From a virus, in the IMG/VR virus record IMGVR_UViG_3300028596_000006, positions 1 through 40,778 of that record: a stretch of DNA of 40,778 bases. One strand, written 5' to 3'. The first letter of the stretch is position 1. Every line of letters begins with the position of its first letter. The position numbers were made by a program, and so were the translations under genes. The notes beneath the pieces were generated by a model. It worked only from the letters and a program-made list of their open reading frames with translations. It searched no databases and had not been told where the DNA came from. Shown piece by piece: positions 3,545 through 35,098 of this stretch.

Positions 3545-4144
3545 ATGGCCCTCAGAAAAATTGATAGGACCGGAGAGATTCATGGGCGCCTCAAGGTGAT
3601 CCGCCGATCTCCTGAGCACGCCCGGGCTTATTGGGACTGCACTTGTGAATGCGGAAAGTCTACTACAGTGCGCGGAGATCACCTCAAGGAAGGTCGAGTA
3701 CAGTCTTGCGGCTGCATCAAGGACGAGCAGCGCTTTGTTCATGGCATGTCCAGAACGCCCATATACAGGTGCTGGCAGAAGATGAAAGAGCGATGCTCCG
3801 ACCCCAATGGAAAACAGGCCAAGGACTATGTGTCTCGAGGCATAACAGTTTGCGAGCGATGGCTTGAGTCTTTCGACAACTTCTTTGCCGATATGGGATT
3901 CCCGCCAGAAGGACTCACACTTGACCGCACCAACAACAATCTCGGCTACTCCAAAGAAAATTGCCGATGGGCTACTCGAAAAGAGCAAGTGGTTAACCGC
4001 AGGAATACTCAATTCGTAACCATCGGTAGCGAGACGATGTGCCTCAAGGATTGGTGCCGCCGTACAGGATCGAACTATGCCACCACTCGCTATCGCATCA
4101 ACAAGATGAAAATGGCGCCTGGGCGCGCGCTTGGCTTGGAATAA
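3545..4144 (+). CDS. Free-standing HNH-type homing endonuclease
   Basis: The 199-residue protein has an N-terminal zinc-binding-like segment with paired cysteines (WDCTCECGKST then SCGCIKDE, about residues 30-60). A central block (YRCWQKMKERC... to CERWLESFDNFF) and the motif LDRTNNNLGYSKENCRWAT (about 127-145) are typical of phage HNH/AP2-type homing enzymes. The C-terminus resembles a small DNA-binding module. It lies in antisense between TerL and portal and fills that gap almost exactly, while its neighbours are all on the minus strand. Such genes spread by cutting homologous loci lacking them. The RBS is GAGAGA before the ATG. Confidence 0.88.
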   Translation: MALRKIDRTGEIHGRLKVIRRSPEHARAYWDCTCECGKSTTVRGDHLKEGRVQSCGCIKDEQRFVHGMSRTPIYRCWQKMKERCSDPNGKQAKDYVSRGITVCERWLESFDNFFADMGFPPEGLTLDRTNNNLGYSKENCRWATRKEQVVNRRNTQFVTIGSETMCLKDWCRRTGSNYATTRYRINKMKMAPGRALGLE

Positions 4145-8339: not shown

Positions 8340-8712
8340 CCTTTTGCCCCTCGCTGGTAATGCCGAGTCTTTTCCGAATCCACTTCTTGCCGTCCTCCGC
8401 GAACACGGCAAGCACGGTTTTGAACACGACTACACAAAAGAAAGCCGCCACAAAGGACGGCAGCGGTGGGGTGCTGAAGCCCCATAGTTCACGTCTGACC
8501 ATTTCGAGCCCGGCGTAATAGCCAAAGACCCATGTAGCAAGCAGGACTCCAATCCTTTCGGGGATCCCTGCGCCCCGGGCGAAGAACGAATACATCACCG
8601 CGCCCGCGAACGCCGCCACTACCGCACTGGCATCCACTCCGACGGCTATCGCCACCCCACCCCCTGCGCCAGCAAGTGCCAGCGGTACAACAGTGCTCAT
8701 AGGCTCGGCCAT
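8332..8712 (-). CDS. Putative holin
   Basis: The 126-residue protein begins MAEPMSTVVPLALAGAG, a Gly/Ala-rich hydrophobic start typical of a holin type I recall from Pseudomonas phages. Further hydrophobic segments lie around residues 33-45, 52-68 and 85-103, and the tail is charged (EDGKKWIRKRLG). It is the first gene of the lysis cassette, after two tandem terminators. The start at 8712 has GGA about 11 bases upstream; an ATG at 8700 is an alternative. Confidence 0.75.
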   Translation of the reverse strand: MAEPMSTVVPLALAGAGGGVAIAVGVDASAVVAAFAGAVMYSFFARGAGIPERIGVLLATWVFGYYAGLEMVRRELWGFSTPPLPSFVAAFFCVVVFKTVLAVFAEDGKKWIRKRLGITSEGQKDD

Positions 8713-11893: not shown

Positions 11894-12102
11894 TGCGGCA
11901 TCTCCCATGTTCCCATCACGAATTCAATCGGCGCATCGAGAACGAGTTGGCAGTGATATCCAGTCCGGTCGTCACCGGAGCTAGTGCATTTGATTACATT
12001 GCTGTGAGCGGTGATCTCATCAACGGCTTTCTGAAGAGTGCTCACCGTCGGCGCATAAAGCATGACAGTCGGGTTTTCTATTTTCCGCTTGCTCATCTTC
12101 AT
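11890..12102 (-). CDS. Hypothetical protein, 70 aa
   Basis: A basic start followed by one alpha/beta unit with two Cys (IKCTSSGDDRTGYHCQLVL). The start at 12102 overlaps the upstream stop (TGATG) and has a G-rich ribosome site; an ATG at 12096 is possible. Unrecognised family. Confidence 0.6.
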   Translation of the reverse strand: MKMSKRKIENPTVMLYAPTVSTLQKAVDEITAHSNVIKCTSSGDDRTGYHCQLVLDAPIEFVMGTWEMPQ

Positions 12103-12410
12103 CACAACCACCCCGCAGACATGGCGATCAGCACCAGGCCCGACGACAGGCCGAAGGCGATGGCGATCATCAGGCAGATTCGGCCAACGATCTTCACGAA
12201 GGTATAGCGGGGCGGATCCATTGCGCGGCGCTCGGCCTCGACAGCGGACGCGCGCAGTTGTCGGCGCAGGCGTTCAAGCTCGGATCGCTCAGCCTTATCC
12301 AGCGGCATAGCCGGATCACGCATCACCGACGAAACGCCGGCTGGATGTGAATGTGGAATTCCACGTGGAATGTTGCACCCGAACACCGGGCACTTCGGCT
12401 TATCTCTCAT
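12102..12410 (-). CDS. Hypothetical tail-anchored protein, 102 aa
   Basis: The N-terminus carries a possible zinc knuckle (CPVFGC and IPHSH). The middle is a charged helix (ERSELERLRRQLRA). The C-terminal 25 residues form a membrane segment (RICLMIAIAFGLSSGLVLIA), suggesting a tail-anchored protein with a cytoplasmic N-terminus. GGAG lies about 10 bases before the ATG at 12410, while the longer frame from 12482 would start inside the palindromic site and terminator. Function unknown. Confidence 0.6.
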   Translation of the reverse strand: MRDKPKCPVFGCNIPRGIPHSHPAGVSSVMRDPAMPLDKAERSELERLRRQLRASAVEAERRAMDPPRYTFVKIVGRICLMIAIAFGLSSGLVLIAMSAGWL

Positions 12411-12430
12411 CGGTCGATCTCCAGAAGGTG

Positions 12431-12459
12431 AAAAGGCGCCCTGGTCTTGTGGGCGCCTT
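12431..12459 (-). terminator. Rho-independent terminator inside the leftward gene block
   Basis: Minus-strand stem AAGGCGCCC/GGGCGCCTT (9 bp, 9-base loop) followed by TTTTC. It divides the small-gene block into two parts and is preceded by a GCAATTGCGC site at 12479-12488. Confidence 0.75.
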
Positions 12460-12478
12460 GTCAGTTTACTTGAATCAC

Positions 12479-12488
12479 GCAATTGCGC
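12479..12488. promoter_or_regulatory. Candidate operator site (GCAATTGCGC)
   Basis: One of five intergenic copies of this palindrome-derived sequence. It lies a few bases after the stop of the 12492-13346 gene and just before the terminator. A minus-strand promoter here is not convincing. Confidence 0.4.
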
Positions 12489-12491
12489 AAA

Positions 12492-17568: not shown

Positions 17569-17597
17569 TTGACGCATCAGCGCAATTGCATTATCGT
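17569..17597 (+). promoter_or_regulatory. Rightward early promoter with operator-like palindrome in spacer
   Basis: TTGACG, a 17-bp spacer and TATCGT. The spacer holds GCGCAATTGC (17580-17589), part of the palindrome seen at other promoters, so a bound repressor would block polymerase directly. Confidence 0.7.
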
Positions 17598-17631
17598 TTG
17601 CCAATCGAAACGAACAACGGAGCAAGACGAG

Positions 17632-17781
17632 ATGAAAGCTAAAGTAATCAACCTGCTGATCAAGGGTGGCTTCAATCAGGAGTCCGTAGCCGCGATGATC
17701 GAAGCGCATTTCGATTACGCCGTAAATACCTACCCTGAAGCAAAGGCGCGTTTCTTGGCCGACGTAGTTATCGCGCTGTAA
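17632..17781 (+). CDS. Small hypothetical protein, 49 aa
   Basis: First gene of the rightward operon. The ATG at 17632 has CGGAG upstream; a longer frame from 17482 would begin upstream of the promoter and is not credible. The peptide is a compact helical domain (FNQESVAAMIEAHFDYA). Family not recognised. Confidence 0.6.
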   Translation: MKAKVINLLIKGGFNQESVAAMIEAHFDYAVNTYPEAKARFLADVVIAL

Positions 17782-17996
17782 TGCAGGTTATCCGGGAAGA
17801 GGTCCACGTCTCCGACATCAAGGTTGGAGACTGCATTGAACACCAAGGCAGGCTTATGACGGTATGCAGAAAAGACATCAAGAAAGGATTTATGGGACTA
17901 ACAATTTTTGGGGATTCTTATCGACTTGGACGACAACTTGTCGTTAGGGCTACACCGATTCACGTTATGCCAAAGCTTCCACCTAAAGCCCCTTAA
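17781..17996 (+). CDS. Hypothetical protein, 71 aa
   Basis: Beta-rich, SH3-like pattern (DIKVGDCIEHQGRLMTVC), as in small phage proteins with KOW/Hin-like barrels. The start overlaps the previous stop (TAATG). Its stop codon sits in the loop of a terminator-like hairpin (17985-18006). Function unknown. Confidence 0.65.
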   Translation: MQVIREEVHVSDIKVGDCIEHQGRLMTVCRKDIKKGFMGLTIFGDSYRLGRQLVVRATPIHVMPKLPPKAP

Positions 17997-18006
17997 CTGG
18001 GGCTTT
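17985..18006 (+). terminator. Terminator-like hairpin
   Basis: Stem AAAGCCCC/GGGGCTTT (8 bp) with a 6-base loop that contains the stop codon of the preceding gene. Only three T follow, so it may attenuate rather than stop transcription. Confidence 0.5.
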
Positions 18007-18033
18007 GGCAGTACCAACACAGGAGCGCCACCG

Positions 18034-18663
18034 ATGACCTTTACGACCACTCTCAACGAAATACGCGAATGCGATCCTTGCACGGAAGGGTGGCGGAAGC
18101 TGCTAAACACTCTTGGCAAGACAAAGGCAGACGATGAGCCTTTATCGCTACTGGCCATCCTCGATAGCAACGGCCTGGACGATGCCTTGTGGTGCGCCCG
18201 TGCTTTCAAAGGCCACGACCGCGACTTCCGGCTGTTTGGCGTGTGGGCTGCTCGACAGGTTCAACATCTGATGACAGATCCTCGCTCGCTCAATGCTCTG
18301 GATGTTGCTGAGCAGTTCGCCAATGGTTTGTGCGATGACGCAGCCAGGGCCGCAGCCTGGGACGCAGCCTTGGGCGCAGCCTGGGACGCAGCCTTGGGCG
18401 CAGCCAGGGCCGCAGCCAGGGCCGCAGCCTGGGCCGCAGCCAGGGCCGCAGCCAGGGCCGCAGCCTGGGACGCAGCCAGGGCCGAAGCCTGGGACGCAGC
18501 CTGGGACGCAGCCTGGGACGCAGCCTGGGACGCAGCCAGGGACGCAGCCTGGGACGCAGCCGGGGCCGCAGCCGGGGACGCACAGGAAAAACGTCTCCGC
18601 CAAATGATCGCCGATGGCGAATGGGTCGGATCCACCTCGAAAATAGAGGACCATTTGCAATGA
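18034..18663 (+). CDS. Ala-rich tetrapeptide-repeat protein, 209 aa
   Basis: The N-terminal ~100 residues form a conserved helical domain (EIRECDPCTEGWRKLL, DEPLSLLAILDSNGLDDALW, RLFGVWAARQVQHLM) that I recall from proteins of phages and bacteria sometimes labelled putative immunity proteins. Residues 103-182 are 20 perfect-length tetrapeptides of the AAWD/AARA/AALG type. A charged C-terminal tail follows. The repeat would form a long Ala-rich helix with Trp/Arg stripes. AGGAG lies before the ATG. Function unknown; the repeat number could vary by slippage. Confidence 0.8.
   Translation: MTFTTTLNEIRECDPCTEGWRKLLNTLGKTKADDEPLSLLAILDSNGLDDALWCARAFKGHDRDFRLFGVWAARQVQHLMTDPRSLNALDVAEQFANGLCDDAARAAAWDAALGAAWDAALGAARAAARAAAWAAARAAARAAAWDAARAEAWDAAWDAAWDAAWDAARDAAWDAAGAAAGDAQEKRLRQMIADGEWVGSTSKIEDHLQ
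18340..18579 (+). repeat. Tandem 12-bp repeat, 20 units
   Basis: Twenty contiguous 12-bp units close to GCAGCCTGGGAC, in frame with the surrounding gene. Variants change the third and fourth codons (TGG/AGG/TTG/GGG and GAC/GCC/GGC). No stop occurs in any of the six frames over this stretch, which produces spurious frames on both strands. Confidence 0.95.
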
Positions 18664-19004
18664 CCCACACCCAAGACGAGCAACGATCCCTGGCGGAAAG
18701 CGCTCTGGCCCAGGCCTGCGCACGGTTCCCGCACGAAGAGTCGGGCCCCGTTACGGTCATGCCGGAGATCTTGAAGCAGCGCTTCGATCAATTGCTGGCG
18801 CTGGCGAAGGATCCGCGGTGGCCGGTGATTGCCCGGGAGAACATCGCGGCGGCTCGCGAGCTGGCCGATACGCTTCACATCACCGGATTGCTCGACACAA
18901 ACACATGGCGCGCCCACCGGGCAGAGTGCAATACCGCGCAGCTCGTTGTGTCAGCCGCAGAAATTAAGCGCTGCGAAGAAGCCCGGCGCCGAGCGAACGA
19001 TTAA
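18660..19004 (+). CDS. Hypothetical protein, 114 aa
   Basis: Helical protein beginning MTHTQDEQRSLAESALAQA. The ATG overlaps the stop of the repeat protein (ATGA). It has one Cys pair near the C-terminus and many Ala and Arg residues. No motif was recognised. Confidence 0.65.
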   Translation: MTHTQDEQRSLAESALAQACARFPHEESGPVTVMPEILKQRFDQLLALAKDPRWPVIARENIAAARELADTLHITGLLDTNTWRAHRAECNTAQLVVSAAEIKRCEEARRRAND

Positions 19005-19044
19005 CCAAACGCCTGAGAAGGCAATCAATCAGATGGAGAGAGTC

Positions 19045-19359
19045 ATGAGCGTTGAACTTTGGAAGGAGCTTATAGGCGAATCCTTGGATAGCCATGGCGT
19101 TACAGCAACTGCCGAGCAGATTGCGTTGATTGCTGAAGATGCGGCCGGAATTGCTGAAAGCATCAGTGAGTACTCATTCCGTCCCGCCGATCCGATGATT
19201 CGCAAACTGGCTGACACCGAGGCGGTGCTCAAGCGTGAGCGCGAAAAAGTAACCTGCCGCACCTGCACAGGGACTGGTTATCTGATCTCTCACGGCCCCC
19301 ATCACAGCGGCGAATCAAGTTGCTGGAAGTGCCGTGGCGAAGGAAGGCATACCCCGTGA
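19045..19359 (+). CDS. Small zinc-finger protein (DnaJ-type CxxCxGxG), 104 aa
   Basis: The C-terminal 35 residues carry CRTCTGTG and CWKCRGEG, the paired CxxCxGxG repeats of DnaJ-type zinc centres. The N-terminal 70 residues are helical. The ATG at 19045 has GGAGAG upstream; an in-frame ATG at 19033 is possible. Such phage proteins are common, and their roles are unproven. Confidence 0.7.
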   Translation: MSVELWKELIGESLDSHGVTATAEQIALIAEDAAGIAESISEYSFRPADPMIRKLADTEAVLKREREKVTCRTCTGTGYLISHGPHHSGESSCWKCRGEGRHTP

Positions 19360-19392
19360 CCCACCGCCTAACCCAAAACACTGGAGGTCGCC

Positions 19393-19818
19393 ATGAGCGA
19401 TTGGATCAAGTGCAGCGACAAGCTGAGTGAAGTAAAAACCCTGGCGACTCTCGTGCTTGGGGGGCTTTTCGATAATCGAGAGCTTGGCGATATCGATATG
19501 TTCTATGACATGCCGGAGTGTGAAGCGCTACAGCGCAATCTGGTAACGAGCATTGACGACGTTCATGTCGAGCTGGTCAGCCGCCTAGATTATGAGGCCG
19601 CCACAGAGCAGCGGAATGCGGCCTGGACTGCTGAAGTCGTTGCAATGGTTGAGAGTGCTTTGCGCCGGTCTTTCTCCCTTGGGCAAATTTACTGGCAGCA
19701 GGCCGACTCTGAATCGACATGCCAGCAAAACAAATCCGATCAAACCATGGAAGTTCAGGCGCAACACATTCTGAACGTTATCAAGTCGATCAACAATCTG
19801 AAGCCGCCCACCGAATAA
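19393..19818 (+). CDS. Hypothetical protein, 141 aa
   Basis: Begins MSDWIKCSDKLSEVKTLATL, with GGAGG before the ATG. Helical, acidic in the first half. No recognised family or motif. Confidence 0.65.
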   Translation: MSDWIKCSDKLSEVKTLATLVLGGLFDNRELGDIDMFYDMPECEALQRNLVTSIDDVHVELVSRLDYEAATEQRNAAWTAEVVAMVESALRRSFSLGQIYWQQADSESTCQQNKSDQTMEVQAQHILNVIKSINNLKPPTE

Positions 19819-19837
19819 CGTCACCCTGGAGGCAACC

Positions 19838-19975
19838 ATGAGCATCATCGCAAAAGACTTCACCGGATTGATCAAAGCAATTCTTGGCCTCGGCTGCGAT
19901 GACTTCGCCTCCGTGGTGTGGGTGCGCCAGCCGGCGCGCATCAATGGAATGTGGCGGGCGGAGGTGGTGCTGTGA
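19838..19975 (+). CDS. Small hypothetical protein, 45 aa
   Basis: The ATG at 19838 follows GGAGG and the frame ends in the GTGA overlap with the next gene. A short hydrophobic helix (FTGLIKAILGLGC) precedes a beta-like C-terminus (ASVVWVRQPARINGMWRAEV). Unrecognised. Confidence 0.55.
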   Translation: MSIIAKDFTGLIKAILGLGCDDFASVVWVRQPARINGMWRAEVVL

Positions 19976-20238
19976 GAGATATCGATCGCACAGCGCAGCT
20001 TGGATGGTCTGGAGAAAGCCAGGCTAGGCGAGCCGACAATCGAGAGAAAAGTGCAGCCATCCTTACGGAGCGTGGGGTTCAATTCGAAAGCAAGAACATG
20101 GGCGCCCATCTGATAGTCAGCCATGGCGAGCATGTGGTCGATTTCTGGCCTGGGACCGGTAAGTACATCCAACGGGGGGGAGCTCGCCAAGGTCGCGGCG
20201 TCTTCAATTTGCTTAAGGTGATCGGAGTTAATCCATGA
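19972..20238 (+). CDS. Hypothetical phage protein, 88 aa (GTG start)
   Basis: The GTG at 19972 overlaps the upstream TGA and has GGAGG upstream. The block FESKNMGAHLIVSHGEHVVD, then DFWPGTGKY and GRGVFNLL, belongs to a phage protein type I have seen often but whose function is not established. The fold looks like a small alpha/beta unit. Confidence 0.7.
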   Translation: MRDIDRTAQLGWSGESQARRADNREKSAAILTERGVQFESKNMGAHLIVSHGEHVVDFWPGTGKYIQRGGARQGRGVFNLLKVIGVNP

Positions 20239-20309
20239 TCGGCCCAACGCGATACGACCTGGCTATCAGCCTGATTTGCCTTGTGATCATCGTGATGATG
20301 GGGGTGTGA
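20235..20309 (+). CDS. Membrane peptide, 24 aa
   Basis: The ATG overlaps the previous stop (ATGA). The peptide is one hydrophobic helix (YDLAISLICLVIIVMMGV). Gene packing on both sides supports translation. A single-pass membrane peptide of unknown role. Confidence 0.5.
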   Translation: MIGPTRYDLAISLICLVIIVMMGV

Positions 20310-20310
20310 C

Positions 20311-20487
20311 GTGAAGCCGACGAATCCAGTTTACGTCGGGAGCCCTCCCCTCGACCCGCCCGACGAGCCCGAGCGCGCCGAATGCAGCAACTGCCACTGT
20401 TACACCGATGCCAGCGTCTGGCTTGCCAGGCACGGCCAATGCCCTAAGTGCGGTTCCTGGGGAACTGCGATTCCGGACGAGGATTGA
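20311..20487 (+). CDS. Zinc-ribbon protein, 58 aa (GTG start)
   Basis: CSNCHC (residues 25-30) and CPKCG (44-48) form a likely four-Cys zinc ribbon after a Pro-rich N-terminus. The GTG follows a G-rich ribosome site and lies one base after the stop of the membrane peptide. Role unknown. Confidence 0.6.
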   Translation: MKPTNPVYVGSPPLDPPDEPERAECSNCHCYTDASVWLARHGQCPKCGSWGTAIPDED

Positions 20488-20489
20488 AA

Positions 20490-20804
20490 ATGAGTGACGA
20501 AATTCTATCGACGCGCCTCGGCACGATGGTCCACACGGTTGTGCTCGCGCTGAGGAACCAATTCGGGAAGAGACTCGACCGAGAAACAATCAGCGAGATA
20601 ACGCGAGATCTCGCAACGGAAATGTGCCTAGGGCCAACGGCCTGGGCGTTTTCAGGGAAAGAGCAGCCGGGTCAACTTTCATACGACGAGGAAAAAGAGC
20701 TGGCCCTATGTCGCGCTCACTGGGAATCGGTCGGCGCCGGTACTCCTTTCCCTGACCTGTGGGAAGGCTGGAAAGCCTGCGCCAAGGCACGCAGCCATGA
20801 GTAA
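20490..20804 (+). CDS. Hypothetical protein, 104 aa
   Basis: Begins MSDEILSTRLGTMVHTVVLA and ends with a block (ALCRAHWESVGAGTPFPDLW, EGWKACAKA) found in many phage accessory proteins. No catalytic motif is visible. It overlaps the next gene by 8 bases. Confidence 0.65.
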   Translation: MSDEILSTRLGTMVHTVVLALRNQFGKRLDRETISEITRDLATEMCLGPTAWAFSGKEQPGQLSYDEEKELALCRAHWESVGAGTPFPDLWEGWKACAKARSHE

Positions 20805-21105
20805 AGCCGCCGAATACGTGCTTGCGTCGATGCACCGGGCCATGTCCAACGGACAAGCGATCGTCGAGATCTCTGTGCAGGATCTCAACGAGGTGATGCG
20901 CGAACACCTCCGGCTCGTCGCGAGAGTGCAGATGCAGGCCGAAATGCCAGGCTCCCACGTCGGCTGGATGGACCCGGACAAGCGCCATGAAATGATGTCC
21001 GAAGGGCACGCTTACATGGTCATCCGCCGCAAGAAGAACGAGCAGTTTCATCGCCGCGTTTTCGCCGCCAGCATTCCAGAGGAGGAACCCGAGAATAAAG
21101 ATTGA
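20797..21105 (+). CDS. Hypothetical protein, 102 aa
   Basis: Mainly helical, with a central part rich in Arg, Met and Gln (VMREHLRLVARVQMQ) and an acidic C-terminus. Its stop codon lies inside the -35 box of the candidate promoter at 21102-21130. Unrecognised family. Confidence 0.6.
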   Translation: MSKAAEYVLASMHRAMSNGQAIVEISVQDLNEVMREHLRLVARVQMQAEMPGSHVGWMDPDKRHEMMSEGHAYMVIRRKKNEQFHRRVFAASIPEEEPENKD

Positions 21106-21130
21106 CGCGCAATTGCGCTAACGCAACAAT
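21102..21130 (+). promoter_or_regulatory. Internal early promoter with full palindromic operator
   Basis: TTGACG, a 17-bp spacer, then AACAAT as a weak -10. The perfect 12-bp palindrome GCGCAATTGCGC (21107-21118) starts at the last base of the -35 box. It lies before the FtsK-gamma-like gene. Confidence 0.5.
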
Positions 21131-21160
21131 CACACCAGACCGCTGTAACTGGAGAGACCA

Positions 21161-21304
21161 ATGACCGATGCAATCCCCTTGGCTCTCCTGTCTTTTGATT
21201 TCTCAACCAAAACAGGAAATGCCAAATGTCACCAGAACAACGCGCCATCATCGCCGCTGCTGAAAAAGACGGCGTATCGCCCATCGAAAAAGATGCCCGG
21301 CTGA
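21161..21304 (+). CDS. Possible short leader peptide, 47 aa
   Basis: An ATG with GGAGAG upstream opens a 47-codon frame that ends inside the next gene in another frame. It lies just after the candidate promoter. The second half overlaps the FtsK-gamma-like gene and reads like a shadow. It could be a translated leader; weak support. Confidence 0.25.
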   Translation: MTDAIPLALLSFDFSTKTGNAKCHQNNAPSSPLLKKTAYRPSKKMPG

Positions 21305-22188
21305 TCGTTCATGGAATGGTGAACGCAACCCGCGACCAGATGCGCCGCTATCAGGTCTGCTACAACAACATGGGTGAGGCTCAACAGGACGCCGTGATCG
21401 CCGAGCTGACCAAGAACTATGAAGACCTGGCCATTACGATTGCTCGCGCCATATCCAGCGCAGGAAGCCCCTATGTGGTCGCCCAGTGCAAGAAGCTCGA
21501 AGTCTCGACAGGCGCATGCACTGTCGTAATCAAAAGCGACCAGGACCATTACAACGAGCTGATTTCGAAGGTTCAAGACAAGGGGGAAGTGGTCATCGTC
21601 CTATACGAGCGTCAGTTCCGTGATGGCATGGACACCATCCAGGCCGACAAGGACCAGCACTCGCTCCCGCTGGATCAAGAAAGCCCATCGCCGGCCAGCG
21701 CCAAGAAGGCCGAGAAGAAAGAACCAAGCCCGACTTCTGCCGCCGCTATCGCTGCCAAACCTGTGGTAATCCCTCCGAAGCTGCTGGCCGACGCGATCGA
21801 GTTCATCGCCAAGCAGCAGGTGTGCGGCGCGTCCTCGCTGCAGAACCATTTGAAGATCGGCCATCCCAAGGCCGTGGTCATCCAGGCTGAATTGGCCGAG
21901 AAAGGCATCTTGTCCGTGGACGAGAAGGGCGAGTACCAGATTGTGCGGACTGGCGCCGGGCCTGCGCCAACCGCTGATGGCGACGTTCCAGCCATCAGCG
22001 ACGAGCTGTTCGAGAAGATCAAGGCCAAGGTGATCGCAGATGGCCGCGCCACCATCAGTGGGACTGCTGTCTTCTTCGACATCGACGAGGCTCAGGCGTT
22101 TGAGGCAATTGACGAGCTCGTCCTTGAAGGAGTTCTTGGCTACGAAGATGCCGAGACGGGCATCTTCACAGTCGATCAGCCGGCTTAA
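21226..22188 (+). CDS. Protein with two FtsK-gamma-like winged helices, 320 aa
   Basis: The N-terminal part (about residues 1-145) is a compact alpha/beta domain I cannot name. A charged, Ala/Pro-rich linker follows (150-182). Then comes a winged helix resembling the FtsK gamma domain (AIEFIAKQQVCGASSLQNHL to VVIQAELAEKGIL, about 186-242) and a second, diverged one (about 258-316). No ATPase motor or Walker motif is present. FtsK gamma reads KOPS sequences on chromosomal DNA, so a DNA-binding role is likely. A terminator follows. Confidence 0.7.
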   Translation: MSPEQRAIIAAAEKDGVSPIEKDARLIVHGMVNATRDQMRRYQVCYNNMGEAQQDAVIAELTKNYEDLAITIARAISSAGSPYVVAQCKKLEVSTGACTVVIKSDQDHYNELISKVQDKGEVVIVLYERQFRDGMDTIQADKDQHSLPLDQESPSPASAKKAEKKEPSPTSAAAIAAKPVVIPPKLLADAIEFIAKQQVCGASSLQNHLKIGHPKAVVIQAELAEKGILSVDEKGEYQIVRTGAGPAPTADGDVPAISDELFEKIKAKVIADGRATISGTAVFFDIDEAQAFEAIDELVLEGVLGYEDAETGIFTVDQPA

Positions 22189-22203
22189 TTCTCGCTCCCA
22201 CAA

Positions 22204-22228
22204 GTAGCCCGGGCCTTCCGGGCTATTT
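22204..22228 (+). terminator. Rho-independent terminator
   Basis: Stem TAGCCCGG/CCGGGCTA (8 bp, 5-base loop) followed by TTT. It ends the gene at 21226-22188. Confidence 0.65.
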
Positions 22229-22248
22229 CGCTCCCACAGAGGCCGACC

Positions 22249-22440
22249 ATGACCCAGCAAGAAACCGAACGAAAGCGCCCAGGGCCGAAGCCTTCCGAAG
22301 GGCCGCTGCAAAAGACGCGGAACGTCCGCATGGATGACCAGCGCTGGCAGTACTTCACCGAAAACCTCGGCGCCGCGTGGCTCCGGCAACAAATCGACAT
22401 CGCGGTTGCTTGCAAGGTCAAGCACCCCAGCAAGGAATGA
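22249..22440 (+). CDS. Small basic protein, 63 aa
   Basis: A very basic N-terminus (ETERKRPGPKPSEG) leads to RNVRMDDQRWQYFTENLG, which looks like a short strand-helix-helix of the Arc type. A DNA-binding role is likely, but the family is not certain. It lies between two terminators with the next gene. Confidence 0.6.
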   Translation: MTQQETERKRPGPKPSEGPLQKTRNVRMDDQRWQYFTENLGAAWLRQQIDIAVACKVKHPSKE

Positions 22441-22442
22441 TC

Positions 22443-22697
22443 ATGCGCCCACAGAAACCCGCTCCCGCAATGTACGGCTCTCTCTCTCTCGACGATATCC
22501 AGATGGTCTTGGTGCTGCGCGGTGGGACAATAAGCCTGGATCAGCTCGCCGACCGCTTCAGGATCGACAAGGAACGCGCCAAGCACTTGGCCCTGGCATT
22601 GCTCGACGAAGGAACGATAGGACCTGTAATCAGCAAGCAGGACCCGAGCGGCAATGAATACACGGTCATCGCCAAACTGGCCGACCTTGTAGCCTGA
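22443..22697 (+). CDS. Winged-helix-like protein, 84 aa
   Basis: Residues 25-60 (TISLDQLADRFRIDKERAKH then ALLDEGTIG) have the form of a winged helix. The start at 22443 has AGGA about 8 bases upstream; an ATG at 22437 overlaps the upstream stop and is an alternative. A regulator is likely; the target is unknown. Confidence 0.6.
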   Translation: MRPQKPAPAMYGSLSLDDIQMVLVLRGGTISLDQLADRFRIDKERAKHLALALLDEGTIGPVISKQDPSGNEYTVIAKLADLVA

Positions 22698-22708
22698 TCC
22701 ACGAATCA

Positions 22709-22741
22709 CCCCCAGCCCTGGCTTTTGTCGGGGCTTTTTAT
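22709..22741 (+). terminator. Rho-independent terminator
   Basis: Inner stem AGCCC/GGGCT (a longer CCCC/GGGG pairing is also possible) followed by TTTTTATTT. It separates the small regulators from the Arc-recombination operon. Confidence 0.7.
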
Positions 22742-22757
22742 TTCCTGTGATTTGCAA

Positions 22758-22786
22758 TTGCGCTATTTATTTGATGGCGGTATGAT
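22758..22786 (+). promoter_or_regulatory. Promoter for the recombination operon
   Basis: TTGCGC, a 17-bp spacer and TATGAT. The -35 box is the right half of a GCAATTGCGC site (22754-22763), so a protein bound there would block it. It follows a terminator and precedes the Arc-like gene. Confidence 0.6.
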
Positions 22787-22817
22787 TCGCTCACACCCAC
22801 TAAAAAGGAATCACGCA

Positions 22818-23036
22818 ATGACCCATATCAGCGAGCAGAAATTTCAAGAAGACGCCGCATCCCGTGACAAGTTCGTCGTTCGATTCGACAGCGAAACCAC
22901 TCGCCAAAGCGTTGCCGACGCCGCCAAGGCAAAGCACATGTCGATGAACGCCTTTCTCCTCCAGGCCATCGACGAAAAGCTGGCGCGCGGGGTTCGCCTC
23001 GACCGCCTGCTGGACGTTGTTGAATTCAAACTCTGA
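22818..23036 (+). CDS. Arc-like ribbon-helix-helix regulator, 72 aa
   Basis: After a short tail, residues 18-58 (KFVVRFDSETTRQSVADAAK to MSMNAFLLQAIDEKL) form the strand-helix-helix of Arc-type DNA-binding proteins, which bind as dimers. It is first in the operon with ERF and the exonuclease, downstream of a promoter overlapping the palindrome. It may autoregulate that promoter, which is inference. Confidence 0.75.
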   Translation: MTHISEQKFQEDAASRDKFVVRFDSETTRQSVADAAKAKHMSMNAFLLQAIDEKLARGVRLDRLLDVVEFKL

Positions 23037-23051
23037 CCAAGGAATAAAGCC

Positions 23052-23807
23052 GTGAGCAAAACAGACGTCATCCAACACGCACAGCCACAGGCCTTGTCCG
23101 CATCGCAGGCCCAGTCATTCATGAGCATTGTCGAGCGCGTAGCACTAATGCCTGACATCAACATGGACGCCCTGGAACGCATGCTGGACATGCAAGAGCG
23201 GATCATGAAGCGCGATGCAGAGTCGGCCTTCAACGCGGCCATGGCGGAAATGCAGTGCGAGATCCCGACCATCGCAGAGCGCGCCAAAGGGCACGGGACA
23301 ATCAAGTACGCCACGCTTGAAGACATCAGCGACATTGTGAAGCCGATCATGAAGACCCATGGCTTCGCGATTTCGTTCAAGGTTGAGCACGCACAAGCTG
23401 GCCTGAGCGTTACCGGGATCCTCATGCACCGAGCCGGGCACCGAGAAAGCACCACCATGTTGCTCCCTCTGGATACATCCGGCAGCAAGAACGCCGTTCA
23501 GTCAGTTGGGTCTACCACCAGCTACGGAAAGCGCTACGTGATGTGCGCCCTGCTCAACATCACCACGCGCGGCGAAGATGACGACGCCTACTCTGCAGTT
23601 CCGTCGAGCCAGGAGCCTGTCATCACAGACATCCAGGTTCGCCAGCTCCAAGCCCTGCTGATCAAGTGCAGCGCCAAGGCGCAAGCAGCGTTCGAAAAAC
23701 TTTACCCGGACGTCTCGTCAATCCCTCGCAAGGCCTTCGATACGGTGCTCAACCAGCTCACCACGTCGGCCAAGAACAACGAGAAGGCACAGGAAAAAGC
23801 AGAATGA
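23052..23807 (+). CDS. ERF-family ssDNA annealing recombinase
   Basis: The 251-residue protein has the ERF family core (about residues 40-180): AFNAAMAEMQCEIPTI, then GTIKYATLEDISDIVKP, GFAISFKVEHA, and SYGKRYVMCALLNI. The C-terminal tail is helical and charged. P22 Erf and relatives anneal complementary single strands, circularising phage DNA and driving recombination. It is followed, with an ATGA overlap, by the exonuclease that would make its substrate. Confidence 0.93.
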   Translation: MSKTDVIQHAQPQALSASQAQSFMSIVERVALMPDINMDALERMLDMQERIMKRDAESAFNAAMAEMQCEIPTIAERAKGHGTIKYATLEDISDIVKPIMKTHGFAISFKVEHAQAGLSVTGILMHRAGHRESTTMLLPLDTSGSKNAVQSVGSTTSYGKRYVMCALLNITTRGEDDDAYSAVPSSQEPVITDIQVRQLQALLIKCSAKAQAAFEKLYPDVSSIPRKAFDTVLNQLTTSAKNNEKAQEKAE

Positions 23808-24427
23808 GCTGCCCTATCTACCTGAATTGCGAGCAGGGAACGGATGAGTGGTTCTCGGCGCGCAGCGGCATTTTGACGGCCTCGGTCATGGGCTGCCTGC
23901 TTGTCAACGGCAAGGACAAATCCGGCCTGGGCGACGGCGCTTTCACGCTCATGAACCAGTTGATCGGCGAGCGGTTCACCGGGGAGCCGGCTGACAAGTT
24001 CGAGGGCAACCGCCATACCGAGCGCGGGCACGAACTGGAGCCTGTCGCCCGGGCTTTCGTGAGCGAACGCCTTGGGATCGAGATCCTGAGTTGCGGGATC
24101 ATCCTAAACCATGGGTGCGGATACAGCCCTGACGGCCTGGTGGGCGAAGACGGCCTGGTGGAAATCAAGACCAAGCTGCCGAAACATCAGATCACAGTGA
24201 TCCTCGGCGGCGTGGTGCCGCCTGAACACGTCGTACAGTGCCAGACCGGGATCTGGCTCAGCGAGCGCGATCACCTGGACTTCGCATCCTTCTTCCCTGG
24301 AATGCCGCTGTTCCACACTCGTATCTATCGCGACGAAGCCATGATCAAGAAGCTCGCCGAGCGCACAAAGGTCTTCTACGAAATCATGGAAGAGCGCACA
24401 CAGAAAATCATCGACCTGACGAGCTGA
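23804..24427 (+). CDS. YqaJ-type viral exonuclease
   Basis: The 207-residue protein matches the lambda Exo/YqaJ family: CEQGTDEWFSARSGILTASV at the start, RGHELEPVARAF (glutamate site), YSPDGLVGEDGLVEIKTKLP (the D...EIK catalytic triad, about residues 103-122), and PPEHVVQCQTGIWL. It would resect DNA 5' ends so the ERF protein can anneal the exposed strands. Its ATG overlaps the ERF stop. Confidence 0.93.
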   Translation: MSCPIYLNCEQGTDEWFSARSGILTASVMGCLLVNGKDKSGLGDGAFTLMNQLIGERFTGEPADKFEGNRHTERGHELEPVARAFVSERLGIEILSCGIILNHGCGYSPDGLVGEDGLVEIKTKLPKHQITVILGGVVPPEHVVQCQTGIWLSERDHLDFASFFPGMPLFHTRIYRDEAMIKKLAERTKVFYEIMEERTQKIIDLTS

Positions 24428-24430
24428 CCC

Positions 24431-25015
24431 ATGGACCTGGCTCTTGTACGCACAGCAAACGGATTGATCGGCGCCACGGAGGCGGATCGTGAGTTGATCC
24501 AGAAGATCAAGTTCGGCTCCACAATCCACGGTGATTTCAAGAAGATGCGGAACGCGAGGCTCCACGGGAAATTCTTCGCCATGCTCGACTTGGCGTGGTC
24601 TTACTGGGAGCCAACCGGCGGTCTTGTGCCTCGCCAGGAGCTGCGCGGCATCGAAGGGCTGGCCAAGTACTTCGAAGAGCTGAATGGTCGGCCAGGGCAG
24701 CTCACGGACGCAGTGCAGGCCTACATCCGAAAGCTTGAGGCCGATCGAGCAGTTAGATTTCCTGCCGTGGACAAAAGCCGGGAAGCATTCCGCGAGTTCA
24801 TCACGATCGATGCCGGACATTACGATTTGGTCAGAACGCCAGACGGCGTGAAGAAGGTGGCCAAGTCCATATCCTGGGGAAAGATGGACGATCTCGCGTT
24901 CTCGGCCCTCTACAAAGACGTGTTTAACGCCTGCTGGCGCCTGGTGCTGTCCTCGCATTTTGGGACAGAGGATGAAGCCCTGGCAGCAGCAGATCAGATG
25001 GGGACCTTTGCATAA
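24431..25015 (+). CDS. DUF1367 family protein
   Basis: The 194-residue protein has the pattern of DUF1367: a start with MDLALVRTANGLIGAT, KMRNARLHGKFFAMLDLAW (about residues 36-54), and a late block (SISWGKMDDLAFSALYKDVF). The family is frequent in lambdoid recombination and nin regions; its role is not proven. It lies between the exonuclease and the Ref-type nuclease, whose ATG it overlaps (TAATG). Confidence 0.8.
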   Translation: MDLALVRTANGLIGATEADRELIQKIKFGSTIHGDFKKMRNARLHGKFFAMLDLAWSYWEPTGGLVPRQELRGIEGLAKYFEELNGRPGQLTDAVQAYIRKLEADRAVRFPAVDKSREAFREFITIDAGHYDLVRTPDGVKKVAKSISWGKMDDLAFSALYKDVFNACWRLVLSSHFGTEDEALAAADQMGTFA

Positions 25016-28224: not shown

Positions 28225-29607
28225 TCAAACTCTCCGGAATGTGATGCGAGAATAGATTTCAGACGTTCCGAGGCTGGCCGCCAAGCCAAGCCCATCGGTC
28301 AGTCGCGTAACCGCCGAGCGGATTTGCAGCTCAAGCACAGAGGTCGCGGCGAGCGTGAACTTCCTGTTCATGACCAAAATAGGCGTAGCCAGTGTGCCAG
28401 TGCCGAGCCCTACCGCGTTGACGCCCTCAAAAACGGTTGTGCCGGCAGTGATGTTTTGCAGTCGAATGCGTGCATCCCCTGCGAAGAACAGGGCCGTGGA
28501 GATATCCGCGATATAGGTCCCAGCCGGAAGCGTGACCTGGTTGGCCGACAGAGAGGCGCCCGGGATTTCGTTGATCTCGATCGTATTCAGGTCTCGGGTT
28601 CGGAATGCCCCCAAGGTGATGCCGCCGCCTGCCGTGCCGTTTGGCTTCGAATCGATCACCGAGAGGTATCCGGAGTTCAGGCCGAAGAACGCCTGACCAC
28701 CTTGGCCTTGGATCTTGCTCGGCGGACTCGTCCAAGTACCTGCCGCTGGCTGCGTGGATTGAACCATTCCCATAACGCGGTATGGGACGCCAGCCCGGGC
28801 AGACTGGGAGTAGAAGACCTGGGCCGATGTTGACGCCGCAGAAATAGCCTGCGTGCTGATCAGGGTGGTTTCATCGAGGACTGCCCCACCGGCCAAGTTG
28901 ATCATAGCCAGCTCTACGGTGCCTGCGTTATCAATGGCTATGATCGCGATCTGGCTTTGAACGCCGCTGACGGTACCCAGGGTGGCGCCGATCGGGGCAA
29001 CCAATGAGACCGAGGCCGTCATGGTCCGGCTGTTGATCGTGGCGTTAGAAAGCGATGGCGACCGGAAGTCAATAACCACCGGGTCCAGTGCAACCGTCAA
29101 TGCGTTACCAGAAACTGCCGCGCTCACCGGGCGGATCTGCGACAACGGCGTAGCGGGCTTGCGTTGGAGCTCAAGCCAATCATTCGCCGAGTCATAGATA
29201 ACCGTGATGCGACCAAAGATATCGCCAGCCGAAGGGTCAATGCCGCCACGGTACTTGATGTTCTTTACGCCAAGACCCTGGAAGTTCGCCGTGGATGCTC
29301 CCGTGTTGGCATTCGCCGTCACGAACCCGAGGACGATCCCGTTCTGGTAGGAGTTCGGCTGATTGGTGTTCGATTGCGGGATCAGGATGTAGGCGTTCGC
29401 CGCAGAGCCGCCGCCAGTGTTGTCCACATAGAAATACGTGCTGTCGGCCACTTGAGCCTCGGACGCCACGGTAAAGCCGCCAGGCGTCACCCCGTCATGC
29501 ACGACAATGGTGTTCTTATCGGTGTCCACCGTCACTTCGCGCTGAGCGCCCGTGAACAGCAGGGTTTCGGCGGTGGTGCCGCCCCGAAGTTGCATTTGAG
29601 TGGACAT
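28225..29607 (-). CDS. Tail fibre with Mtd_N-type N-terminus, 460 aa
   Basis: The first 45 residues (MQLRGGTTAETLLF... to VVHDGVTPGG) match the small N-terminal domain of major tropism determinant-type and phage hyaluronidase-type fibres. A long beta-rich middle follows. The C-terminal 140 residues (LPAGTYIADISTALFFAG, IRLQNITAGTTVFEG, LELQIRSAV) have a C1q/TNF-like jelly-roll look, a common receptor-binding head. The start overlaps the stop of the adaptor gene (TAATG). No enzyme motif is visible. Confidence 0.8.
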   Translation of the reverse strand: MSTQMQLRGGTTAETLLFTGAQREVTVDTDKNTIVVHDGVTPGGFTVASEAQVADSTYFYVDNTGGGSAANAYILIPQSNTNQPNSYQNGIVLGFVTANANTGASTANFQGLGVKNIKYRGGIDPSAGDIFGRITVIYDSANDWLELQRKPATPLSQIRPVSAAVSGNALTVALDPVVIDFRSPSLSNATINSRTMTASVSLVAPIGATLGTVSGVQSQIAIIAIDNAGTVELAMINLAGGAVLDETTLISTQAISAASTSAQVFYSQSARAGVPYRVMGMVQSTQPAAGTWTSPPSKIQGQGGQAFFGLNSGYLSVIDSKPNGTAGGGITLGAFRTRDLNTIEINEIPGASLSANQVTLPAGTYIADISTALFFAGDARIRLQNITAGTTVFEGVNAVGLGTGTLATPILVMNRKFTLAATSVLELQIRSAVTRLTDGLGLAASLGTSEIYSRITFRRV

Positions 29608-34323: not shown

Positions 34324-35098
34324 GGGCTTCCACTCCGATCATGTCGTAGTTGACCACCTTGTAACCACGGCGCTCTGTGACGGCCTCTGGATGCGTCTTC
34401 TCGACTTCCTGGGCAATCACGCCAGCAGAGCGCCCAACGAGCCCCAGCGCAGCGGCAGCGGCGTTCCACACCCATTTGTAGACATTGTGCCCGTTGCATT
34501 GGCCGAGGAGCACGACTTCATCCTTCAGGCGCTCGTCAGAGAACGTTTCATAGCCCTGCATCGCCAGCGCGCCGGCCCCCATGGCGTTGTTGAAGTTGTT
34601 CTGGCTCTGCTGGGCGCCGAAGTTGGCCTGGGCGGTCATGCCCTGGGCGTAGGTCTGGCCGATGCCAGCCATAGAGCCGGCGATGTTGTTGGCGTTCGAC
34701 GGGAGCTGCGCCATTCCCTGAAGGCCCGACAACTGGTTGGCGTAGGAGGCCATCAAGGCATTCTGATTGACGGAAGCAAGCGCCTCGTTCGTGTTGCCAG
34801 AGCGCAAACCGCCAGTGGCCGAGGCATTGCGTAGAACACCCTCTTCGCCGCGCTGAACCATTGTCTGGTAGAAGGGACTGTCTTCGGCCCGCTGGACAAT
34901 GCTCTTGCCGTCGGACACGAACTTTCCATTGGCGCCAAGGGTCAGGCCGTATTCCGAGCCAAGACCGGTCAATGCGCCTTCGCGCAGAGCCTGTGGAAGT
35001 CGCTCGGTTGACTTCAGATAATCAAGGGCTTCGCGCTGGGCCTGGGCCTGCACTTCTGCCGCGTCTTCTGCACCGCTATCGCTTGATCCGCCACTCAT
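34313..35098 (-). CDS. Ejection-region protein with S74-like C-terminal domain, 261 aa
   Basis: The N-terminal 180 residues are helical and Ala/Gln/Asn-rich, like ejection proteins. From residue 187 the sequence reads SDERLKDE, then YKWVWN, AGVIAQEVEKTHPEAV (225-240) and GYKVVNYDMIG, the signature of the peptidase S74 (intramolecular chaperone) family. The domain stops about 5 residues after that, without the long helices usual in self-cleaving fibre chaperones. The ATG at 35098 overlaps the upstream stop (ATGA). Confidence 0.75.
   Translation of the reverse strand: MSGGSSDSGAEDAAEVQAQAQREALDYLKSTERLPQALREGALTGLGSEYGLTLGANGKFVSDGKSIVQRAEDSPFYQTMVQRGEEGVLRNASATGGLRSGNTNEALASVNQNALMASYANQLSGLQGMAQLPSNANNIAGSMAGIGQTYAQGMTAQANFGAQQSQNNFNNAMGAGALAMQGYETFSDERLKDEVVLLGQCNGHNVYKWVWNAAAAALGLVGRSAGVIAQEVEKTHPEAVTERRGYKVVNYDMIGVEAHGL

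Follow-up and report, generated by a model that had tools for sequence, protein, structure and literature searches.

The window, meaning the whole 40.8-kb stretch of an IMG/VR virus record analysed here, belongs to a Pseudomonas-type phage with a P22-like portal. The genes that concern us are the following.

12102..12411, minus strand: small gene behind site S4, no assigned function, N-terminus conserved in contig G006
17267..17467, minus strand: Cro/C1-like HTH_26 protein, rejected below as reader of the boxes
17632..17781, plus strand: first early gene behind site S1 (phrog_9411), no assigned function
21226..22188, plus strand: FtsK_gamma-domain protein (PF09397, E 2e-11; phrog_6576), gene 1 of the S2 operon
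22249..22440, plus strand: 63-aa putative ribbon-helix-helix-like protein, the proposed regulator, with relatives in phage PfAn1 and contigs L019 and L041/G006; co-occurs with the boxes
22443..22697, plus strand: 84-aa protein, gene 3 of the S2 operon, matching the C-terminal part of phrog_6576
22818..23036, plus strand: Arc-like protein (PF03869), first gene behind site S3, a proposed target and not the regulator
23052..25015, plus strand: recombination genes behind site S3 (Erf annealing protein, YqaJ/RecE-like exonuclease and NinB)

The match to phrog_6576 (FtsK_gamma protein) falls in two pieces here, its first part at 21226-22188 and its C-terminal part at 22443-22697, with the proposed regulator gene between them. 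A PHROG search with the small gene behind S4 returned no match. Elsewhere in the window, an HNH-endonuclease-like gene (3545-4144, plus strand) sits between the terminase and portal genes in the opposite orientation, and its product is 42% identical to the HNH protein of the PfAn1 early region. The gene at 18034-18663 codes for a protein related to proteins without assigned function in phages AF and PPpW-3; at 18340-18600 it has a long series of short, nearly identical repeats, GCAGCC[TA]GGG[AC]C, which encode a stretch rich in Ala/Trp/Arg-Asp/Ala. The protein encoded at 28225-29607 (minus strand) carries a Major tropism determinant N-terminal domain (Mtd_N), a family known from the receptor-binding protein of Bordetella phage BPP-1.

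An earlier note on this DNA had described a palindrome as a candidate phage operator, and all of the copies that it listed, together with a half-site, were found in place:

17580-17589: GCGCAATTGC, palindrome copy
21107-21118: GCGCAATTGCGC, full palindrome copy
22754-22763 and 12479-12488: GCAATTGCGC, palindrome copies
772-779: AATTGCGC, half-site

The core GCAATTGC occurs four times in the window (12479, 17582, 21109 and 22754) and nowhere else in it. All four copies lie between genes, as had been claimed, although intergenic DNA makes up only about 10% of the window in the curated gene map. The expected number in intergenic DNA was 0.13, and none of 5000 Markov simulations reached four copies. 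A scan of all 8-mers of the window for words that have four or more copies, all outside genes, yielded only GCAATTGC and its one-base shifts CAATTGCG and AATTGCGC. Counting against a shuffled control, as the earlier note had proposed, gave a more modest excess for the window as a whole, with 4 copies seen against 1.6 expected (about 2.5 times) and 10 of 100 shuffles reaching four. The signal for GCAATTGC is thus its confinement to intergenic DNA, and the whole-window shuffle by itself is a weak control. The modest whole-window count would suit chance palindromes in AT-richer intergenic DNA; however, the intergenic simulations and the conservation of the sites at orthologous positions leave that explanation a negligible probability. 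Among the papers listed by a literature search, the only one to contain GCAATTGC deals with a Bacillus regulator, and no paper was found on PfAn1.

Each of the four sites was compared with the promoter that it accompanies. Two of the promoters were called by a consensus scan and two, which the scan does not call, were recognised by eye.

S1, 17574..17589: boxes GCATCAGC / GCAATTGC, abutting, inside the early rightward promoter's spacer
S1 promoter, 17569..17597, plus strand: TTGACG-17-TATCGT (-35 17569-17574, -10 17592-17597), consensus scan
S2, 21107..21124: full palindrome GCGCAATTGCGC, boxes GCAATTGC / GCTAACGC abutting, filling the spacer of the FtsK_gamma / regulator operon promoter
S2 promoter, 21102..21130, plus strand: TTGACG-17-AACAAT (-35 21102-21107, -10 21125-21130), consensus scan
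S3, 22754..22763: box GCAATTGC, overlapping the weak -35 of the Arc-like / Erf / exonuclease / NinB operon promoter
S3 promoter, 22758..22786, plus strand: TTGCGC-17-TATGAT (-35 22758-22763, -10 22781-22786), by eye
S4, 12471..12488: boxes GCAATTGC / GCAAATCA abutting (plus-strand reading), in the -35 and spacer of a minus-strand replication-arm promoter
S4 promoter, 12463..12490, minus strand: TTGCGC-16-TAAACT (-10 TAAACT 12468-12463), by eye

It had been proposed that three of the sites lie in or on the -35 of plus-strand promoters. The placement was corrected: S1 lies in the spacer, S2 begins on the final -35 base (position 21107) and continues through the spacer, and S3 overlaps the -35. 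It had also been proposed that a single regulator might control early, recombination and capsid genes together. Control of the early and recombination genes is supported. Control of the capsid genes is not: their only link was the half-site at 772, which we rejected because it amounts to one match at chance level and the scaffold promoter of PfAn1 does not have it. The site at 12479 serves the small replication-arm gene, not a scaffold gene.

A simple gene caller, which had been checked against the annotation of PfAn1, supplied the gene maps for a scan of 24 genomes that suggested what the unit of recognition might be. An exact tandem, GCANNTGCGCANNTGC, is present three times in phage PfAn1 (L006; 24139, 27610 and 34833), and contig L019 has two more copies, at 470 and 3480. 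The five are all intergenic, and no copy was found in any gene of the 24 genomes. In the window, the copies at 17574, 12479 and 21109 correspond to this tandem with 1-2 mismatches, and the site at 22754 has one good box only. G006 (a contig of L041) mostly has the box form GCAAGTGC, at its regulator, early and S4-type promoters. These relatives indicate that the actual unit is probably an 8-bp box, GCANNTGC, single or often as two abutting copies, placed in the spacer or on the -35, and that the palindrome would be the symmetric form of this operator box. Intergenic enrichment of GCAANTGC was clear in four genomes only, namely the window (p 0.001), PfAn1 (4e-5), L019 (2e-4) and G006 (0.004), these p-values being uncorrected for the 24 genomes tested. 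Among the other 20 genomes, G017 alone was marginal, and its best site has no recognisable promoter.

The sites fall at corresponding promoters in these genomes. The first of these (OA; window 21109, PfAn1 27610, L019 470) has boxes between TTGAC and the -10 in each case, just 3' of a related small gene and 5' of an early operon; in the window this operon opens with the FtsK_gamma gene, in PfAn1 and L019 with a nuclease gene. Boxes are also present in the promoter of the regulator gene itself (OB) in PfAn1, L019 and G006, and in PfAn1 and L019 an extra box-like sequence follows the -10 of this promoter. A third promoter (OC; window 12479, PfAn1 34833, G006 28644) is shared together with a GGCGCC hairpin and TTTT, a Shine-Dalgarno sequence and the gene start; its -10 TAAACT is conserved in PfAn1 and G006, and the encoded N-terminus is common to the window and G006. 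A fourth (OD), an early promoter with the leader ATCGAAACG, has a box in the window (S1) and in G006 (GCAAGTGC), and the equivalent PfAn1 promoter is without one. Because of the intergenic confinement, these orthologous promoters and the co-occurrence with one phage protein described below, the reading of the boxes as a phage operator common to several promoters is well supported, and we consider it very probable that the operator is real.

The leader of the S4-type gene is itself of interest. Straight after the -10 come the GGCGCC hairpin (window 12430-12460, minus strand; PfAn1 34862-34890; G006 (L072) 8672-8700), then TTTT and then the Shine-Dalgarno sequence. This order is kept in the window, PfAn1 and G006, and a similar arrangement is seen in G017 at about 29729. 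The fold z-score of the leader is -4.2 in the window and unremarkable in the other genomes. The hairpin might act as an attenuator, terminate transcripts that come from upstream, or stabilise the 5' end.

The earlier note had named three proteins as possible regulators, and these were compared across genomes for co-occurrence with the boxes. Only the 22249-22440 protein fits by this measure, and the Cro-like and Arc-like proteins do not. Boxes are carried only by the four genomes that encode this protein or its close relatives (PfAn1 23894-24091, L019 3542-3721 and L041/G006), which have the strand motif T/S-R-x-[VL]-R-M-D-D. The four genomes (L019 being a fragment) share some ancestry, so the co-occurrence does not amount to four independent events. 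A DNA-only scan of 2.9 million IMG/VR contigs for a box plus a -10 matched 13 distinct contigs besides the window. Direct searches with the proteins of the window and of PfAn1 found two contigs and no others, and both are among these 13; as one of the pair is nearly identical to the window, it is mainly L019 that lends independent support. The remaining 11 look for the most part like coding or chance matches. The FtsK_gamma protein is present in most of the genomes compared, with or without boxes. This co-occurrence suggests that the 22249-22440 protein is the regulator of the boxes.

The position of S1, in the divergent intergenic region of the HTH gene, is what would be seen if the Cro/C1-like protein bound the boxes as in lambda-like immunity regions, and this is a genuine HTH_26 protein, present in the window, PfAn1 and G006. 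However, its recognition-helix residues vary (SSTAVSRL in the window, TQPSVSGL in PfAn1, RASSLSAS in G006) while the box stays the same, no box lies beside the PfAn1 HTH gene, and G017 has an HTH protein of the PfAn1 type with the same recognition residues, yet neither box-bearing promoters nor a relative of the regulator. The box therefore does not follow the HTH recognition helix across phages, and we regard a Cro/C1 immunity operator as very unlikely.

We also weighed the Arc-like protein, which has a real Arc-family match and whose gene has S3 directly upstream, as a binder of the boxes that autoregulates through S3. Against this, boxes occur without a detected Arc-like homologue in PfAn1, G006 and the L019 fragment, and homologues up to 73% identical occur in HU1, L008-L014 and G010-G013 without boxes upstream, HU1 and G010-G013 being genomes that have no set of boxes at all, which makes this reading extremely unlikely. 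The P22 Arc family (PF03869) was likewise rejected as the tracking protein, as the 22249-22440 protein has no Arc match and the occurrence of the sites does not follow that of the true Arc-like protein (22818). A further feature of the Arc-like gene's promoter (22774-22790) is a GATGGCG-TATGAT stretch at the -10 that is common to L013 and L014 upstream of their Arc-like genes, and the Arc-like protein may use this stretch as an operator of its own.

It is common for phages to make use of regulators of their host, and a Pseudomonas transcription factor might be imagined to read the boxes. Yet the relatives with Pseudomonas hosts (AF, HU1, Orisa03, Orimi01 and PPpW-3) have no such intergenic sites, and the presence of the box tracks a phage gene, so that a host reader appears highly improbable.

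The favoured protein, that at 22249-22440, gave no match in Pfam and no PDB profile match. Two AlphaFold2 runs modelled the monomer as one continuous helix with low to modest confidence (pLDDT 66-72), and an hhalign comparison with the Arc-like family found nothing. The PfAn1 copy is annotated as 'putative Arc-like repressor', and three distant relatives weakly match phrog_6506 'Arc-like repressor' (E 0.012-0.039). Nineteen members share the pattern R-x-[IVL]-R-[ML]-x-D-x-x-W-...-L-G-x-x-W-L-R-x-x-I, compatible with the strand-helix-helix of a ribbon-helix-helix protein. Judged from sequence, the 22249-22440 protein is most likely a putative ribbon-helix-helix-like, autoregulating early repressor.

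Distant versions were found through a search for FtsK_gamma neighbours followed by a search with the family alignment, and many of them lie directly 3' of an FtsK_gamma gene. Where they have promoters of their own, these contain other short repeats, common to versions with the same strand motif. Versions with RNIRLSD (L036, L103 and partly L101) have the promoter repeats GTAGGTAC/GTACCTAC, those with RPIRMTD (L037, L112) have TGTGCTACA with GTATTACA, and those with RPIRMDD (L038 and L040, which are near-identical sequences) have GTGTA-TACG. The groupings were made by eye, and members of a group also share ancestry. The repeats of the distant members were not found at other promoters of their genomes; an extra GTAGGTAC copy in G001 lies at a gene start and is probably due to chance. 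A blind search for 8-mers enriched in the regulator promoters was dominated by terminator T-runs only, neither the regulator alignment nor the PfAn1 FtsK_gamma protein gave confirmed relatives in scans of GTDB genome contigs, and a plasmid search with the distant member L052 as sole query found none.

The matching of repeat to strand motif would be the trace expected of a protein and operator that change together. It is possible, and we propose it tentatively, that these proteins form a tiny ribbon-helix-helix-like repressor family outside Pfam, encoded beside the FtsK_gamma protein in Pseudomonas-type phages, in which the operators would vary along with the putative DNA-contacting strand: GCANNTGC for T/S-R-x-[VL]-R-M-D-D, the GTAGGTAC type for RNIRLSD and the TGTGCTACA/GTATTACA type for RPIRMTD.

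From the sites, their positions, their orthology and their co-occurrence with one protein, we infer binding, repression and its timing as follows. The 22249-22440 protein would bind GCANNTGC boxes, single or two abutting. It would do so at S1 in the early rightward promoter, at S2 before its own FtsK_gamma operon, at S3 before the Arc-like/Erf/exonuclease/NinB operon and at S4 before the small replication-arm gene, four promoters in all. With boxes that overlap the -35 or fill the spacer, the bound protein would block RNA polymerase, and as its level rises the early genes, the recombination genes and its own synthesis would therefore be shut down; the lowering of transcription is deduced from this overlap only. 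Operators are present at several promoters including its own, that is at OB in PfAn1, L019 and G006 and at the S2 operon in the window, with further promoters in all four genomes. The same protein might instead activate from these boxes, or mark the DNA in a partition-like or architectural way. Some ribbon-helix-helix proteins do activate or bind centromere repeats, and the poor -35 (TTGCGC) of S3 and S4 suits activation, the counterpart of S3 in relatives without the regulator having mostly TTGACA or TTGACN. However, the boxes at S1, S2 and OA fill the -35/-10 spacer, a polymerase-blocking position, and the regulator promoters of PfAn1 and L019 have more box-like sequence 3' of their -10, so we think this rather unlikely. 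In our judgement the probable explanation is a real operator, to which the 22249-22440 protein binds as a repressor.

Known systems offer partial parallels. Like P22 Arc, the 22249-22440 protein is a small phage protein proposed to lower early transcription, here in a phage with a P22-like portal, but it has no Arc or Pfam match and is proposed to act at four promoters. The MetJ methionine repressor reads abutting 8-bp palindromic met boxes as tandem units, and these boxes may be the nearest parallel in operator geometry; MetJ differs in being a host metabolic regulator with a corepressor, and a PDB profile search found no sequence similarity to it. The nearest working analogue appears to be F55 of the archaeal virus SSV1, a ribbon-helix-helix repressor whose tandem-repeat operators lie at early promoters, either inside or beside them, and at its own (PMC5569661). 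The two are alike by position, each being a small viral protein with tandem-repeat operators at early and own promoters, but F55 reads a ATAGATAG-type repeat in a lysogenic archaeal virus, and the present protein is only a putative ribbon-helix-helix protein.

A palindrome spotted by eye has in this way become a testable circuit with a named candidate regulator, four targets and operators that recur across phages. Early, recombination and replication-arm genes of a phage with a P22-type portal would be linked under a proposed regulator of 63 residues that profile libraries have missed. If the wider family is as we suggest, each phage lineage would have its own specificity, like the immunity groups of temperate repressors, and the natural variants of protein and operator would provide a set for working out how small proteins shift DNA specificity.
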